A DNA stretch of 64,000 nt from an uncultured Flavobacteriaceae bacterium (GTDB lineage Bacteria; Bacteroidota; Bacteroidia; Flavobacteriales; Flavobacteriaceae): contig CANNCA010000006.1 of assembly GCA_947503005.1 (NCBI GenBank), forward strand, positions 186,001 to 250,000. The letters are read 5' to 3'. Both the position numbers and the translations under genes were made by a program. A model generated the notes under the pieces. It searched no databases, was not told where the DNA came from, and saw only the letters and a program-made list of their open reading frames with translations. Position 1 is the first letter of the stretch. The number at the start of each line of letters is the position of its first letter. Shown piece by piece: positions 43,687 to 58,233 of the stretch.

Positions 43687-44769
43687 TTAAGAATTAATTA
43701 CCTTCTCTTGATGGTTGATCGATTCTTGGTGGATTGCCTTGAACATTTTCAAAACAAACTCTTCACTCAGGCCTTTCGACTCACCTTCTAGAATCATGGC
43801 ACCCAAAATCTGGTTCCAACGATTTGATTGTAAAACGGCAACGTTTCTTGACTTTTTCAATTCACCAATTCCATCGGAAATTTTCATTCTTTTTCCCAAG
43901 GTATCAATCAACTGATTATCGATAACATCTATTTGAGCCCTTAAGTTGCTCAATTGACTATTATACTCTGCTTCTGGGTCGTCTTCTTTTCTGATTTTCA
44001 AATCGTTCATAATTTGGACCAATCTTTTGGGTGTTACTTGCTGCGCAGCATCGCTCCACGCATTATCAGGATCGTGATGTGTTTCGATCATCAATCCGTC
44101 AAAATTCAAATCCAATGCCGTTTGTGAAACGTCAAAGATCATATCACGTTTACCTGTAATGTGTGACGGGTCATTGATCAATGGCAAATCAGGAAATCTA
44201 TTTTGAAACTCGATAGCTAATTGCCATTCAGGAATGTTTCTATATTTCGATTTTTCATAGGTCGAAAACCCTCTATGAATTGCTCCTAGTTTATTTATTC
44301 CTGCGGTATGCAAACGTTCGATTCCGCCCAACCATAAGGCTAAATCAGGGTTTACTGGGTTCTTTACCAAAACAATTTTATCCGTTCCTTCCAACGCATC
44401 GGCCAATTCTTGCATGATAAACGGGCTCACCGTTGAACGTGCTCCAATCCAAAGTAAATCGATATCGTGTTCCAAAGCCAATTCAACGTGTGCACGATTG
44501 GCAACCTCAGTAGCCGTTTTCAATCCGGTTTCCGCTTTAACTTTCTGGAGCCATTTGAGACCTAGTGCCCCAACACCCTCAAAATTACCTGGACGTGTTC
44601 TTGGTTTCCAAATGCCCGCACGGTAATAATTGACATCGGTATCTTTCAGACTATGTGCTATACCTAAGACTTGCTCTTCCGTTTCAGCACTACATGGCCC
44701 TGCTATCACTAGTGGATGGTCTAAACCCATATCATCCAGCCATGTTCTCATTTCTTTTGTATTCTCCAT
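43687..44769 (-). CDS. Bifunctional DAHP synthase/chorismate mutase (type II)
   Basis: A 360-residue fusion. Residues 1-260 are a DAHP synthase of the small KDPG-like class (VIAGPCSAETEEQ, RAGIWKPRTRPGNFEG, LPLINDPSHITGKRD), which joins PEP and erythrose 4-phosphate. Residues about 268-355 are an AroQ chorismate mutase helix bundle (LSNLRAQIDVIDNQLIDTLGKRM). The fusion puts the first step of the shikimate pathway and the branch to prephenate in one protein, where the mutase may also serve as the regulatory domain. It is the last gene of the pheA-tyrA operon. Confidence 0.94.
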   Translation of the reverse strand: MENTKEMRTWLDDMGLDHPLVIAGPCSAETEEQVLGIAHSLKDTDVNYYRAGIWKPRTRPGNFEGVGALGLKWLQKVKAETGLKTATEVANRAHVELALEHDIDLLWIGARSTVSPFIMQELADALEGTDKIVLVKNPVNPDLALWLGGIERLHTAGINKLGAIHRGFSTYEKSKYRNIPEWQLAIEFQNRFPDLPLINDPSHITGKRDMIFDVSQTALDLNFDGLMIETHHDPDNAWSDAAQQVTPKRLVQIMNDLKIRKEDDPEAEYNSQLSNLRAQIDVIDNQLIDTLGKRMKISDGIGELKKSRNVAVLQSNRWNQILGAMILEGESKGLSEEFVLKMFKAIHQESINHQEKVINS

Positions 44770-44877: not shown

Positions 44878-45738
44878 CTATTTTTTGTTCAAAGGTATTC
44901 CGTTTAAAATCTCTTTTATCTTATTGGTATTGTCCATTTGCTCATAAATACCCTGATAGTCATTTCGCAATAACATCTGTTTGAATTCTTCAAGATTCTG
45001 AATGTATTCATCCAGTGTTTCAACTACATTTTCCCTATTCTGCTCAAATATGGGTGTCCACATCGCCGGAGAGCTTTTTGCAAGTCGTACCGTGCTTTCG
45101 AAACCCGACCCGGCCATATCAAAAATATCACGTTCGTTTTTCTCTTTTTCGATAACGGTCTTTCCTAACATAAAAGAACTGATATGCGACAAATGGGAAA
45201 CATATGCAATATGCTTATCATGAGCTTCGGGATTCATATATCGGATGCGCATTCCCATTTTCTGAAAGAGTTCCAACGCTCTCTCTTGTAATTTGAAAGC
45301 TGTTTTTTCCACTTCACAGATAATATTCGTTTTGCCATCGTATAATCCAGAAATAGCCGCGGTAGGACCTGAGAACTCCGTACCCGCAATAGGATGCGCA
45401 GCTAAATAATTTCTTCGCTTAGAATGGTCTTCCAGTGACTTGCATATTAAGCTTTTGGTAGACCCTCCATCGAAAACCACACAATCATCGTTCACTCCAT
45501 TTAAAATTTCAGGAAGCTCGGTTACCAAAACATCCACAGGAATAGATACGATTACCATATCTGCTAAACCTAAATCGTCGTAGCTAGATTTCGTATCAAT
45601 TAAATTTAACGCTAAAGCTTCTTCTACATGAGCCTCATTTGCATCAATTCCATAAATTTTCGCATTAGGATGAATGCTTCTGATGTCTTTTGCAAAAGAA
45701 CCTCCGATCAATCCGATACCGATTATAAATACGTTCAT
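44878..45738 (-). CDS. tyrA: TyrA, prephenate dehydrogenase
   Basis: A 286-residue NAD(P)-dependent enzyme that turns prephenate into 4-hydroxyphenylpyruvate. The nucleotide loop GIGLIGGSFAKDI lies at residues 7-19; DGGSTKS, HPIAGTEFSGP and SHLSHISSFML are family features. No ACT or chorismate mutase domain is attached. It starts one base after the aminotransferase stop. Confidence 0.93.
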   Translation of the reverse strand: MNVFIIGIGLIGGSFAKDIRSIHPNAKIYGIDANEAHVEEALALNLIDTKSSYDDLGLADMVIVSIPVDVLVTELPEILNGVNDDCVVFDGGSTKSLICKSLEDHSKRRNYLAAHPIAGTEFSGPTAAISGLYDGKTNIICEVEKTAFKLQERALELFQKMGMRIRYMNPEAHDKHIAYVSHLSHISSFMLGKTVIEKEKNERDIFDMAGSGFESTVRLAKSSPAMWTPIFEQNRENVVETLDEYIQNLEEFKQMLLRNDYQGIYEQMDNTNKIKEILNGIPLNKK

Positions 45739-45739
45739 A

Positions 45740-46885
45740 TCAAAATCTGTCTATTGCTTCTTGAATCTTTTCCTTGGTAACACAAAGTGAAAACCGAATA
45801 TACCCTTCACCATTAGTTCCAAAAATCGTTCCTGGTGCTATAAATATGTTTTTATCATATAAGATTTCATCAATAAACTCCTCAGCAGGTTTACTTCCTT
45901 CCGGTAGCTTGGACCAAACGAACATGCCAACAGCATCCTTGTCATAAGTACATCCTATTTTGTCGGCCAGACGGAACATTAATTCCCTTCTAGAGGAATA
46001 AACTTCATCCAAATGTTCAAACCATTCTTTACCGCTTTGCAAGGCGGCAATCGCTCCTTTTTGAATACCATAGAACATGCCTGAATCCATGTTGCTTTTT
46101 ACTTTCAAAATAGATTGAATGTGCTCCGCTTTACCCAAAACCATACCAACACGCCATCCTGCCATATTAAATGTCTTGCTCAGTGAATTCAACTCAAGGG
46201 CTACATCCTTGGCCCCTTCGATATTTAGAATACTAGTCGGATTCTTACTTAACACAAAACTATACGGATTGTCATTAATCAATAATATATTTTTCTTCTT
46301 GGCGAAATCAACGAGCTGTTTAAACTGAATTTTTGTAACAGTTGCCCCCGTAGGCATATGAGGATAACTCACCCACATCAATTTCACTTTGGAAAGATTT
46401 TCATTACCTAGAGCTTCCAAATCAGGAAACCAACCATCGGTGCCATTTAAATTATAACTTCTACAAACGCCACCGACTAATTTCGTAACCGAATTATAGG
46501 TGGGATACCCAGGATTCGGAATCAAAACCTCATCTCCTGGGTTTAAAAAAGCCATACTAATATGCATGATACCTTCTTTGGACCCCATTAAAGGCAAAAC
46601 CTCATCAAGAGGATTCACCTTTACCGAGAATTTCGATGCATAAAAATCAGCAATCGCCTCGCGAAGTGTCGGCAAGCCCTGATAACTTTGGTATTGATGT
46701 GCACCGGTATCGGTAACCGCATCTTTAACTGTATCTATAACAGCTTGAGATGGAGCTAAATCAGGACTACCAATACCCATATTGATAATCGGACGACCTT
46801 CAGCCATAAGTCCACGCACTTCTCGCAACTTTTTTGAGAAGTAGTATTCTTGAACCGTTTCCAATCTATCAGCCGTTTGTATCAT
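45740..46885 (-). CDS. Class I/II aminotransferase, probable aromatic/prephenate aminotransferase
   Basis: A 381-residue fold-type I PLP enzyme. INMGIGSPDLAPS opens the substrate loop, NDNPYSFV holds the ring-binding Asp, and the Schiff-base Lys is in NSLSKTFNMAGWRVG. General members act on many amino acids; placement between pheA and tyrA points to transamination of phenylpyruvate, hydroxyphenylpyruvate or prephenate. Overlaps pheA by four bases (ATGA). Confidence 0.85.
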   Translation of the reverse strand: MIQTADRLETVQEYYFSKKLREVRGLMAEGRPIINMGIGSPDLAPSQAVIDTVKDAVTDTGAHQYQSYQGLPTLREAIADFYASKFSVKVNPLDEVLPLMGSKEGIMHISMAFLNPGDEVLIPNPGYPTYNSVTKLVGGVCRSYNLNGTDGWFPDLEALGNENLSKVKLMWVSYPHMPTGATVTKIQFKQLVDFAKKKNILLINDNPYSFVLSKNPTSILNIEGAKDVALELNSLSKTFNMAGWRVGMVLGKAEHIQSILKVKSNMDSGMFYGIQKGAIAALQSGKEWFEHLDEVYSSRRELMFRLADKIGCTYDKDAVGMFVWSKLPEGSKPAEEFIDEILYDKNIFIAPGTIFGTNGEGYIRFSLCVTKEKIQEAIDRF

Positions 46886-47709
46886 ACCATGGCATTTTTA
46901 TATTCGCCCAATACTTTAAAGTTTTCAGACATGATGTTCAGCAATGCTTTTGCCTTTTCAAAATTGGCATAACCATCAAAAGTCACATCAACAAAGAAGG
47001 CATATTTCCAAGGAGTTTCTATAATAGGGAGGCTTTGAATCTTTGTTAAATTCAAATTACAATCACTCATTACATTAAGCATAGCGGCTAAACTGCCCCG
47101 TTTGTGGTCAGTAATGAAACGTACCGATGCCTTATTGATATCCTCCTTCGGAAGCTCTTTATTCTTTGTTTTTACAATGATAAATCGAGTGGCGTTATTC
47201 TTTATCGTCTGTATGTCCGATGCTACGATGTCCAGATTATATAATTCAGCGGCTACCTTGGGTGCAATTGCCGCGATTCCTTTCAAACTATGTTCTTCAA
47301 TTTGTTTGGCAGTCTCGGCCGTATCTACATCTTCGACCATTTTAATATGTGGTCGGGTCTTTAAATATTCCCTACACTGTAAAAGGGCCATCGGATGTGA
47401 ACGCACTTCATGAATATCAGTTAAGCTTTGTCCTTTAAGGACCATAAGATTATGATGAATGTTTAAATAATGCTCACCAATAATGTGAAGACCATTGTCA
47501 TAGACGAGCGCATAATTTGGAATAATCGATCCTGCAATCGAATTTTCGATAGCCATAATACCTTTGTCGGCCTTGCCTTCTAAAAGCTCATCCACCAACC
47601 CGTGAAAGGACATGCATTCCACAAGTTCGATATCATCACCATAGTAGTCCTTTGCTACCTGATGATGGTTTGATCCTTTAATTCCTTGTATTGCTATTCT
47701 TAAACCCAT
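46882..47709 (-). CDS. pheA: PheA, prephenate dehydratase with ACT domain
   Basis: A 275-residue enzyme that converts prephenate to phenylpyruvate. The catalytic part shows AIENSIAGSI and the dehydratase signature NNATRFIIVKTK; the C-terminal ACT domain begins at SVRFITDHKRGSLAAML and has the LTKIQSLPI Phe-binding motif. Chorismate mutase is not fused here but to the DAHP synthase at the operon end. ATG at 47709 is preferred over TTG at 47718. An attenuator with a Phe/Tyr-rich leader peptide precedes it. Confidence 0.95.
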   Translation of the reverse strand: MGLRIAIQGIKGSNHHQVAKDYYGDDIELVECMSFHGLVDELLEGKADKGIMAIENSIAGSIIPNYALVYDNGLHIIGEHYLNIHHNLMVLKGQSLTDIHEVRSHPMALLQCREYLKTRPHIKMVEDVDTAETAKQIEEHSLKGIAAIAPKVAAELYNLDIVASDIQTIKNNATRFIIVKTKNKELPKEDINKASVRFITDHKRGSLAAMLNVMSDCNLNLTKIQSLPIIETPWKYAFFVDVTFDGYANFEKAKALLNIMSENFKVLGEYKNAMV

Positions 47710-47727
47710 TATAGTCAACTATGAACG

Positions 47728-47753
47728 AAAAAAGTCCCGCTTTTGCGGGACTT
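47728..47753 (-). terminator. Attenuator terminator of the pheA operon
   Basis: Minus strand AAGTCCCGC-AAAA-GCGGGACTT is a 9-bp GC-rich stem with a 4-base loop followed by four more Ts, so the U-run is six long. It lies between the leader peptide and pheA. The 5' arm AGTCCC (47752-47747) can instead pair with GGGACT at 47791-47786 inside the leader ORF, an antiterminator that excludes the terminator. Confidence 0.9.
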
Positions 47754-47778
47754 CCATACTATATCTTGTTGCAATATA

Positions 47779-47847
47779 TTATAACAGTCCCTCACCTCTT
47801 TTAAAGAAGTAAAAAAAGTAACCGTTAAAGAAATATTGCTTAATCAT
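47779..47847 (-). CDS. Leader peptide of the pheA operon (Phe/Tyr attenuator)
   Basis: A 22-codon ORF too short for standard gene finding: it begins MIKQYFFNGYFFYFFKR and ends GEGLL. Six Phe and three Tyr codons lie within eleven consecutive codons (47802-47836 region), exactly the end products of the operon behind it. The stop (47779-47781) is just downstream of the segment GGGACT (47786-47791). A ribosome stalled on Phe/Tyr codons leaves that segment free to form the antiterminator; a ribosome reaching the stop covers it, and the terminator forms. The mechanism is inferred; the ORF, codons and complementary segments are seen. Confidence 0.88.
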   Translation of the reverse strand: MIKQYFFNGYFFYFFKRGEGLL

Positions 47848-47865
47848 GATACACTTAAACTTGGG

Positions 47866-47895
47866 CTAATGTATGAATTAAATTTTAAATTCAAA
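47866..47895 (-). promoter_or_regulatory. Promoter of the pheA leader and operon
   Basis: Minus strand TTTG (47895-47892), an 18-base spacer and TACATTAG (47873-47866), one mismatch from TAnnTTTG. Transcription would begin about 12 bases before the leader ATG. The -33 box overlaps the stop codon of the upstream peptidase gene. Confidence 0.55.
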
Positions 47896-49393
47896 GTTTT
47901 TCTTGTAAAATAGCTAACATGGTTTTAATTCCCTCTCTATAATTTCCCAATCGGATGTTCTCATTCGGACTATGTTGATTGTTATCTCGATTGACCGTTG
48001 GAACAGTAACCGCTGGAATGCCCAAAGTAGTCACAAAAGGAGAAATCGGGATGGAGCCTCCACTCATTCGAATCATAATGGGTTCCTCACCAAATGCATT
48101 TTTCAAAGCACTACGCAACCATAGCCCAACTTCGGAATCAAAAGAAGTGCGAAACGATTGATACGAAATCTCAGAAGTAAAAGTTGCTATCTTGCTATGA
48201 GCCAAACGTTCTTCTTCAGTTGGTTCCCTATCGACTATAATATACCCCTGGTCTTCAATGTGGCCCTTTATTAAATCTAAAAGACGTTCAGGGTCTGATT
48301 CCAAAACCAGCCGAACATCAATTTCTGCACGTGCCCAACCGGGAATTATAGTACGTACTTTCTCATCGATCCATCCCGATTGCATTCCACGAATGTTTAA
48401 AGAAGGATACTGAATGGCTTCTTGATAATAACTTCCCACTTTATCGGTTTCTGCAATTTGAAGTCTGTTTTTGATTTGATTCTCGTTATCTGGCACTGCC
48501 TTCAAAATCATTTCGGTTTGTGCATCAATTTGGATTCCATCATAAAAACCTGGAATGGTTACCTTGCTATCATCATCTTTCATAGAAGCCAATAATTTTG
48601 ATAATCGCAATGCCGGATTGGGAGCGTAATTTCCAAAATGACCGCTGTGTTGTGGCACTACGGGCCCATAAGTGGTCAAAGTGATGGTAGCTATACCTCG
48701 TGCGCCAAATGTTAGGGTAGGCCTGTTCGTAATGTGACGTGGGCCATCATAAATGATTAGCATATCAGCCTTGAGCAATTCAGCATTGTCAGTCACAGCT
48801 TGCGGTAATCTCGGTGAGCCAAGCTCTTCCTCAAAGTCCATAATGACCTTGATATTGTAATTGGGGATGATTTTGGCATCTGCTGCTGCATCGAGAGCGG
48901 TTAAGAACATTGCCACAGGCCCTTTGGCATCACTGGCCGAACGTGCAAAAACTCGCCAGTCATCTTCATAGTCAGTGATTTTTTCCCATGCAAGTTTTTC
49001 CCAATCTCCATTGGAGTTTTTCTTCTTCAAGGTCGGTGAATACGGACTCTCTTGAAACCAACGTGTACTATCTACCGGTTGACCGTCAATTTGCAAATAA
49101 ATCAGAACGGTCTTTTTTGACTTATTGAGTTTGCGTTCCGCCAGCAGAAGCGGTGCTGTTTCAGTCTTGATTCTATTTGTAGTGAAGCCTCTTTCAGCAA
49201 AACTCGTTTCACACCAGCGTACATTTTTTTCAATGTCATCGGGATAGAATGCATCATTAGGGATACTCAATAACTCTTTCAGCATCGGAAAAGACTTCTT
49301 GGCGTAGCTGCTTGAAAGCATATCTAGCTGCGATGTATTTTGGGAAAACAGTAAAAAAGGAAACCATAAAAAAAGGATAAGGTACTTCATCAT
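47891..49393 (-). CDS. M20-family peptidase-like protein, first zinc His replaced by Gln
   Basis: A 500-residue exported protein with a signal peptide (to about residue 17). M20 motifs: YLQIDGQPVD (residues 99-108), where Gln101 replaces the usual zinc-binding His and Asp103 is kept; ASDAKGPVAM; DFEEELGS with the catalytic Glu pair; MSGGSIPIS; and NQHSPNENI with the late His. It lies upstream of the pheA operon on the same strand but is separated from it by a promoter. Peptide cleavage is plausible but altered metal binding is likely. Confidence 0.82.
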   Translation of the reverse strand: MMKYLILFLWFPFLLFSQNTSQLDMLSSSYAKKSFPMLKELLSIPNDAFYPDDIEKNVRWCETSFAERGFTTNRIKTETAPLLLAERKLNKSKKTVLIYLQIDGQPVDSTRWFQESPYSPTLKKKNSNGDWEKLAWEKITDYEDDWRVFARSASDAKGPVAMFLTALDAAADAKIIPNYNIKVIMDFEEELGSPRLPQAVTDNAELLKADMLIIYDGPRHITNRPTLTFGARGIATITLTTYGPVVPQHSGHFGNYAPNPALRLSKLLASMKDDDSKVTIPGFYDGIQIDAQTEMILKAVPDNENQIKNRLQIAETDKVGSYYQEAIQYPSLNIRGMQSGWIDEKVRTIIPGWARAEIDVRLVLESDPERLLDLIKGHIEDQGYIIVDREPTEEERLAHSKIATFTSEISYQSFRTSFDSEVGLWLRSALKNAFGEEPIMIRMSGGSIPISPFVTTLGIPAVTVPTVNRDNNQHSPNENIRLGNYREGIKTMLAILQEKL

Positions 49394-57962: not shown

Positions 57963-58040
57963 AAATAGTAGTCAAAAACAGTGAAATGGTAATGTAAAAT
58001 ATCAAGTAAGGAAAAAGTATAGACAATCTGTCTTTCTTTA

Positions 58041-58142
58041 GTTATCTGCCTGCCAACTGGCAAATAGAATGTAGCACCTTCTTTAAAGATAAAGGGTTGC
58101 TAAGGTTTCATAGGGTCTAATCCCTCCACCTTTCTTGATAAC
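58041..58142 (-). promoter_or_regulatory. SAM-I (S-box) riboswitch upstream of metH-metF
   Basis: Minus strand: P1 is GTTATC (58142-58137) with GATAAC (58046-58041). Between lie the S-box core AAGGTGGAGGGATTAGACCC, then TATGAAACCTTAGCAACCC and GGTGCTACATTC, all in consensus order. Bound SAM should turn off the methionine genes. A 5-bp AGACA/TGTCT hairpin with a short U-run follows at 58033-58021 and is a weak candidate for the expression platform. Confidence 0.92.
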
Positions 58143-58233
58143 AATTTCAATGTATTAATGAACTGACCACAAAGAAACGGCACAGGTTAATTAAAACCAA
58201 ATTCTAGGGTCATTATTAATCATACTTAAATCC

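Follow-up and report, generated by a model that had tools for sequence, protein, structure and literature searches.

What controls the aromatic amino acid operon that begins with pheA in this uncultured Flavobacteriaceae bacterium, and which shortages does the control element report? The window, by which we mean the whole 64,000-nt stretch of DNA that was analysed, carries a short open reading frame (ORF) and two mutually exclusive hairpins on the minus strand upstream of pheA. From its sequence, the arrangement is very probably a classical ribosome-mediated transcription attenuator that would turn the aromatic genes on only when those amino acids are short. The initial annotation had spoken of translation attenuation; transcription attenuation controlled by translation is the proper term. 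The genes behind the leader are the following.

46882..47709, minus strand: pheA, prephenate dehydratase (PF00800), with its ATG at 47709
45740..46885, minus strand: class I/II aminotransferase (PF00155), with a 4-base overlap with pheA
44878..45738, minus strand: tyrA, prephenate dehydrogenase (NF006307, above cut-off), 1 base after the aminotransferase gene
43687..44769, minus strand: fused DAHP synthase/chorismate mutase (PF00793 and PF01817), 108 bases after tyrA

The last gene of the operon encodes the DAHP synthase/chorismate mutase fusion, in agreement with the earlier statement that the operon includes the first shikimate step. This fusion is the sole DAHP synthase found in a whole-genome profile search; the genome's other PF00793 match is a KDO8P synthase, and PF01474 gave zero matches in the whole-genome search. 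Upstream of pheA lie these elements.

47892..47895, minus strand: TTTG, –33 promoter box, weakly conserved
47866..47873, minus strand: –7 promoter box TACATTAG, of the TAnnTTTG type, 18 nt 5′ of the leader ATG
47779..47847, minus strand: leader peptide ORF MIKQYFFNGYFFYFFKRGEGLL, 22 codons, ATG at 47847, stop codon ending at 47779
47803..47835, minus strand: control block, leader codons 5-15, with nine Phe/Tyr codons
47820..47826, minus strand: region 1, AACGGTT, pairable with region 2 in the consensus fold (predicted protector hairpin)
47783..47791, minus strand: region 2, GGGACTGTT, within the final codons of the leader ORF (sequence, covariation)
47747..47791, minus strand: antiterminator hairpin, 6+5+6 bp, including the leader stop codon (fold with a stalled ribosome)
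47728..47755, minus strand: intrinsic terminator with an 11-bp stem, AAAA loop and T-run (sequence, covariation, fold)

Most of what the initial annotation had read from these letters holds. The promoter-like boxes are present as TTTG at 47895-47892, which we take to be a –33 box, and TACATTAG at 47873-47866, with a spacer of 18. The 22-codon ORF stands at 47847-47779 with six Phe codons, three Tyr codons and zero Trp codons, and the terminator, described earlier as 9 bp with a U-run, has its stem AAGTCCCGC/GCGGGACTT at 47753-47745 with 47740-47732 and six T residues at 47733-47728. For the antiterminator the proposed positions stand: GGGACT at 47791-47786 in region 2 is complementary to AGTCCC at 47752-47747 (region 3), which doubles as part of the terminator 5′ arm. 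Its proposed length of 6 bp does not, the hairpin being 6+5+6 bp, of which the covariation test covered the outer 6 bp only. A short ORF rich in product codons is found just after the promoter, with an intrinsic terminator, recognized by sequence, between leader and first gene; by geometry and covariation, the antiterminator excludes the terminator and would be covered once a ribosome sits on the stop codon. A simple terminator scan of 46500-49000 reported none, the attenuator's own included, probably because the stem runs on into the T-run. A sigma-70 promoter scan was uninformative at the locus, where the promoter is of another type.

From this anatomy we infer the following course of events. 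RNA polymerase would start a few bases past the –7 box, and a ribosome would translate the 22-codon leader. Should charged tRNA-Phe or tRNA-Tyr become scarce (in many relatives perhaps tRNA-Trp as well), the ribosome would stall in the aromatic run, leaving region 2 free to pair with region 3 while region 4 has yet to be transcribed, and polymerase would continue into pheA, the aminotransferase gene, tyrA and the DAHP synthase/chorismate mutase gene. Under good supply the ribosome would reach the stop codon and cover region 2, regions 3 and 4 would pair, and transcription would end at about 47728.

These states were folded with a ribosome in place, in the window and in the wider survey described below. 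A ribosome placed on the leader stop codon lets the terminator fold in all 132 surveyed leaders that have one, and with a mid-block stall and the 3′ arm still unmade, the antiterminator folds in 131 of the 132. The stalled-ribosome fold discriminates poorly from its shuffle, 98-107 of the 132 still passing after the last nine codons and the spacer were shuffled, and it therefore serves as an illustration. Moving the stall to the last control codon lets the antiterminator pass in just 78/132. The composite antiterminator has a folding energy of –15.8 kcal/mol with a stalled ribosome, versus –17.7 kcal/mol for the terminator stretch. At equilibrium the terminator prevails despite a stalled ribosome, both in the window and in 101 of the 132 genomes, so antitermination must depend on folding order. 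That the antiterminator forms first and persists is the usual assumption for such attenuators.

Conservation was examined among near relatives, sampled as the best 80 of 550 relatives' loci plus same-genus genomes. The 90 complete loci gave 87 pheA upstream regions from 85 genomes, with 83 distinct leaders; two genomes are present twice through different cut points (L005/L018 and L007/L033). A leader precedes pheA in all 87 regions of this sample, with the consensus MTKQYF[W/Y/F]NGFYFYFFFKRGTGLL, and the Phe/Tyr codons, for which an alignment had been suggested, are kept in every one of these 87. Within the same genus, PheA was matched in 12/14 genomes and the leader is found in 11/11 with readable upstream DNA (G004 starts inside pheA, and so has none); one of these 11 is a genome outside the 87 regions. 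TAnnTT[A/T]G occurs at the –7 position in 83 of the 87 regions versus 6 of 348 control segments, while TTTG at –33 with a spacer of 16-21 is retained in 17/87. The TAnnTTTG consensus appears in the accessible part of PMC9723704. In one relative (L009), a frame shift moves the stop codon 5′ and gives another C-terminus, and the pairing is retained; region 2 there starts inside the stop codon, so a ribosome at that codon would still cover it. In L015, L016, L018 and L067, a palindrome such as CCCTGAATTTGTTTCAGGG lies between terminator and pheA and widens the gap.

Compensatory changes, the other outcome named in advance as support, were found in both stems. On alignment A1 (57 sequences, pairwise similarity under 0.93), 98.8% of 2:3 pairs are standard, versus 20-66% with slid partners, and double changes occur in 4/6 pairs against a shuffle mean of 0.8; for 3:4 the figures are 99.7%, versus 21-60% when slid, with double changes in 5/7 pairs. 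Across the 83 distinct leaders, regions 2 and 3 pair at 494 of 498 positions. Every position pairs in 79 leaders; each of the other four has one unpaired position, which counts against the attenuator. The 3:4 pairing reaches 498/498, a figure favoured by construction, since region 3 was chosen as the best complement of region 4. Partners have altered together as GGAGCT/AGCTCC in L011, GAGGCT/AGTCTC in L041, GGAACT/AGTTCC in L060 and L085, and AGGACT/AGTCCT in L016. These pairing counts take relatedness into account only partly, through a haplotype test in which region 3 was re-dealt among the 19 2:3 haplotypes; real pairing was better (p 1e-4). By the same kind of test, covariation of the 1:2 protector was not above chance (p 0.32), and this hairpin stands as a predicted feature of the consensus fold.

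What appears by sequence to be the same attenuator is found in many other Bacteroidota. An RNA model, R1, matched 172/199 family and 100/295 class genomes at E 0.01 and was dropped for counting because of its noisy tail (strict filters, T-rich hairpins); PheA was used as the anchor instead. PheA was matched in 121/140 family genomes and 39/149 class genomes, 157 distinct genomes in all, of which G000 and G013 were already in the near set, leaving 155 for the survey; near-relative and wide sets may share genomes beyond these two. An ORF with at least 7 Phe/Tyr codons per 14 precedes pheA in 127 of the 155, a cut-off passed by 15/465 dinucleotide shuffles and by 5/155 on the reverse strand. Such leaders had been supposed rarer in Bacteroidota, a view that this count contradicts. 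At a cut-off of at least 6, 135/155 genomes pass versus 51/465 shuffles and 21/155 on the reverse strand. A terminator lies behind the leader ORF in 132 of these 135, and the antiterminator scores 10.9 with a genome's own arms versus 8.8 with arms from other genomes.

Twenty of the 155 genomes fall below the lower cut-off: 12 are without a leader before pheA and 8 are otherwise accounted for. In three (G026, G092, G140) the leader lies farther upstream; G048 and G061 are cut by contig ends; G269 and G337 have a short leader around YFWFY; and G212 is doubtful. In G140 (L345), G026 (L346) and G092 (L347) the leader ends 388-960 nt 5′ of pheA, and the DNA between attenuator and operon is perhaps a gene. 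Among class genomes beyond the family itself, the leader is counted as present in 24 of 35, spread over 15 of 21 family codes, with G212, G269 and G337 included as weaker cases. Another twelve class genomes each have an ORF with six or more Phe/Tyr codons, and nine of these twelve also have a terminator. In other classes of the phylum, ORF and terminator were found together in 3 of 20 genomes (G512, G552, G622) hand-picked among the matches listed, with G602 and G689 passed over for having PheA within a longer fused frame; the PheA proteins of those three are nearer to the window's than are those of the other 17.

Operon content was checked in 40 of the 155 genomes, all 20 below the cut-off and 20 of the 135 above it. 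Thirty-six operons were informative; G061, G048 and G269 (contig ends) and G212 (doubtful) were left out. Where a leader precedes pheA, a DAHP synthase gene follows in 24/24 operons; where none does, the gene is linked in 2 (G277, G235) and absent from the operon in 10 (Fisher p 2.6e-7, for 36 related genomes that were chosen, not random). In G336, G304 and G234, a leader and terminator of the same design stand before the DAHP synthase gene instead of pheA, with the leader reading MLITAAIYFTFFYFYFRSQNRIGAVYCPVKN in G336, a near copy of it in G304 and MNWHKAYFFYYSPSRD in G234. No leader with terminator was found before that gene in G036, G266, G231, G335, G221 or G302; G231 has an F/Y/W-rich ORF there, with the terminator absent. 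G344 (L358) is uninformative, as its upstream DNA ends after 101 bases. Based on the 24/24 versus 2/12 linkage and the three leaders found at the DAHP synthase gene, the element tends, as judged from gene order, to accompany that gene rather than pheA. Counting against an attenuator are the 12/155 genomes without a leader before pheA, of which two keep the linkage to DAHP synthase and six lack a leader-terminator pair at the DAHP synthase gene too. The Tyr codons are kept even in four leader-bearing operons (G289, G292, G250, G126) where pheA and the DAHP synthase gene have neither an aminotransferase nor a tyrA match between them.

Which amino acids are sensed turns on the Trp codons of the relatives. 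A Trp codon is present in 81 of the 135 leaders, exactly one in 80 of them. Compared with the window's long ORFs, enrichment above twofold is limited to F (5.0x), Y (4.0x) and W (3.1x); the W codons number 82 versus 17.6 expected, with relatedness ignored, and all 82 precede at least three F/Y codons. Codon 7 in the 83 distinct near-relative leaders is W in 46, Y in 21, F in 16 and nothing else; in the window's own leader it is F. On the PheA tree, in which 28 of 80 inner branches are weak, this codon has changed at least 16 times, and W was gained or lost in 9 or more of these changes. Because going from TGG to TAT or TTT takes two base changes, selection seems to retain an aromatic codon at position 7. 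These patterns suggest that the Trp codons are probably control codons too, with Trp shortage sensed in many relatives, and that control by three residues, Phe, Tyr and Trp, is possible. A place for Trp among the control codons would accord with the position of DAHP synthase, the sole one found in the genome, which feeds all three aromatic branches. We give close to an even chance to a broader proposal, that the element is an old Bacteroidota gate for which a shortage of any one of Phe, Tyr and Trp is a signal (an OR gate), the codons being interchangeable and the true target being the fused DAHP synthase/chorismate mutase, not pheA, hence its place before that gene in other operon layouts.

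The rival reading, in which only Phe and Tyr are sensed and the relatives' Trp codons are incidental, has a chance somewhat short of even. It accords with the window's leader, which has no Trp codon, with the 54 of 135 leaders that have none, and with the presence in the same genome, upstream of trpE, of another candidate leader that has three Trp codons; the codon-7 pattern would also fit selection for an aromatic side chain, and the PheA tree is weakly supported. Set against it are an aromatic residue at codon 7 in 83/83 leaders, kept through that many changes involving W, and the enrichment of W, which only F and Y exceed. Two other explanations would do away with, or demote, attenuation itself. 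Were the leader a functional aromatic peptide or a nascent-chain arrest sequence, and the hairpin a plain terminator or insulator, one would expect peptide conservation beyond Phe and Tyr, and near relatives do keep N-G behind codon 7 and a terminal K-R-G-T-G-L-L. The kept non-aromatic codons mostly overlap regions 1 and 2, however; across families the aromatic run, the terminator and the pairing remain, whereas the rest of the peptide varies, and L009, with its shifted frame and other C-terminus, still pairs, which makes this reading most improbable. Very unlikely, too, is a role in trans for the prematurely ended transcript of ~130 nt, either as a small RNA or through its peptide, that would make attenuation in cis secondary: such action has a precedent in the S. 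meliloti trp leader peptide (accessible part of PMC7298713), but the leader's association with aromatic genes and with the DAHP synthase gene suits a cis role.

Attenuation in cis, the preferred reading, has known counterparts. Among 4227 Rfam families, Phe_leader (RF01859) is the best at the leader, with 29.3 bits (E 0.0053 for 401 bases), and it matches 6/10 relatives' loci at 28.5-36.2 bits (E 0.026-1.3). With a gathering threshold of 55, the 29.3 bits of the window and the 36.2 bits of the best of the 10 loci both fall outside that family. The flavobacterial leader resembles the enterobacterial pheA leader (pheL, RF01859) in its target gene, its presumed mode of action, its richness in Phe and its antiterminator/terminator layout, and differs in adding Tyr and often Trp codons and in an operon that contains DAHP synthase. 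To our knowledge, E. coli pheL has Phe codons and no Tyr codons. In E. coli, the thr and ilv leaders each sense more than one amino acid with a single leader, for other amino acids and in another phylum. Bacteroid-trp (RF01692) is likewise a leader-peptide element of Bacteroidota, with Trp codons and another operon. A riboswitch was rejected, with no Rfam match at gathering score at the leader; the window's single match lies elsewhere, a SAM riboswitch (RF00162) at 58039-58144 on the minus strand (80.3 bits). A T-box reading of the leader was considered on general grounds and set aside.

The same genome holds further leader candidates. The sequence MKEIRTNIWWWNNSRQLS upstream of trpE (G000:C6:27977; L311, ~881-1000) is a candidate trp leader; it has a terminator-like hairpin and scores 36.9 bits with Bacteroid-trp versus a threshold of 49; the ORF between it and trpE presumably resembles a GIY-YIG endonuclease. 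Upstream of hisG (L313, G000:C2:719323-719787) lies a candidate his leader, MKNKNTHHHLSTGCQAR, and behind it a terminator-like hairpin with a T-run. The palindrome ATTCCCGCCTTCGCGGGAATGAAAA, dispersed-repeat-like, stands just before both trpE (L311) and hisG (L313).

In its accessible part, a transcriptome study of Flavobacterium psychrophilum (PMC9723704) reports strong indications that amino acid operons are attenuated through leader peptides, and places a 5′ element, without an Rfam match, upstream of pheA there and in other Flavobacteriaceae genera. That element belongs to the same gene and the same family of bacteria as ours and is described in that part by location, not anatomy; we infer that it is likely the present element. 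With a conserved 5′ element before Flavobacteriaceae pheA already in that source, the finding is not wholly new. No Phe/Tyr/Trp leader of Bacteroidota was found in a search of mainly open-access literature; a comparative study by Lopatovskaya et al. 2010 is cited in the accessible part of PMC4833913. The type of mechanism is old, and what is added here is the anatomy, the covariation, the range, the possible three-residue control and the linkage to DAHP synthase.

The case is a solid one for an ordinary mechanism, moderately interesting for its pooled signal and the target of that signal. The element could also serve to test whether transcription and translation are coupled in these bacteria, which, according to the accessible part of PMC9723704, lack Shine-Dalgarno sequences. 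Our results provide a precise, testable candidate regulator of this genome's one identified DAHP synthase and, probably, a regulator of the same kind in many Bacteroidota. If the interpretation is true, a single leader would pool information on two or three of the end products that a branched pathway makes, and act on their common first step.
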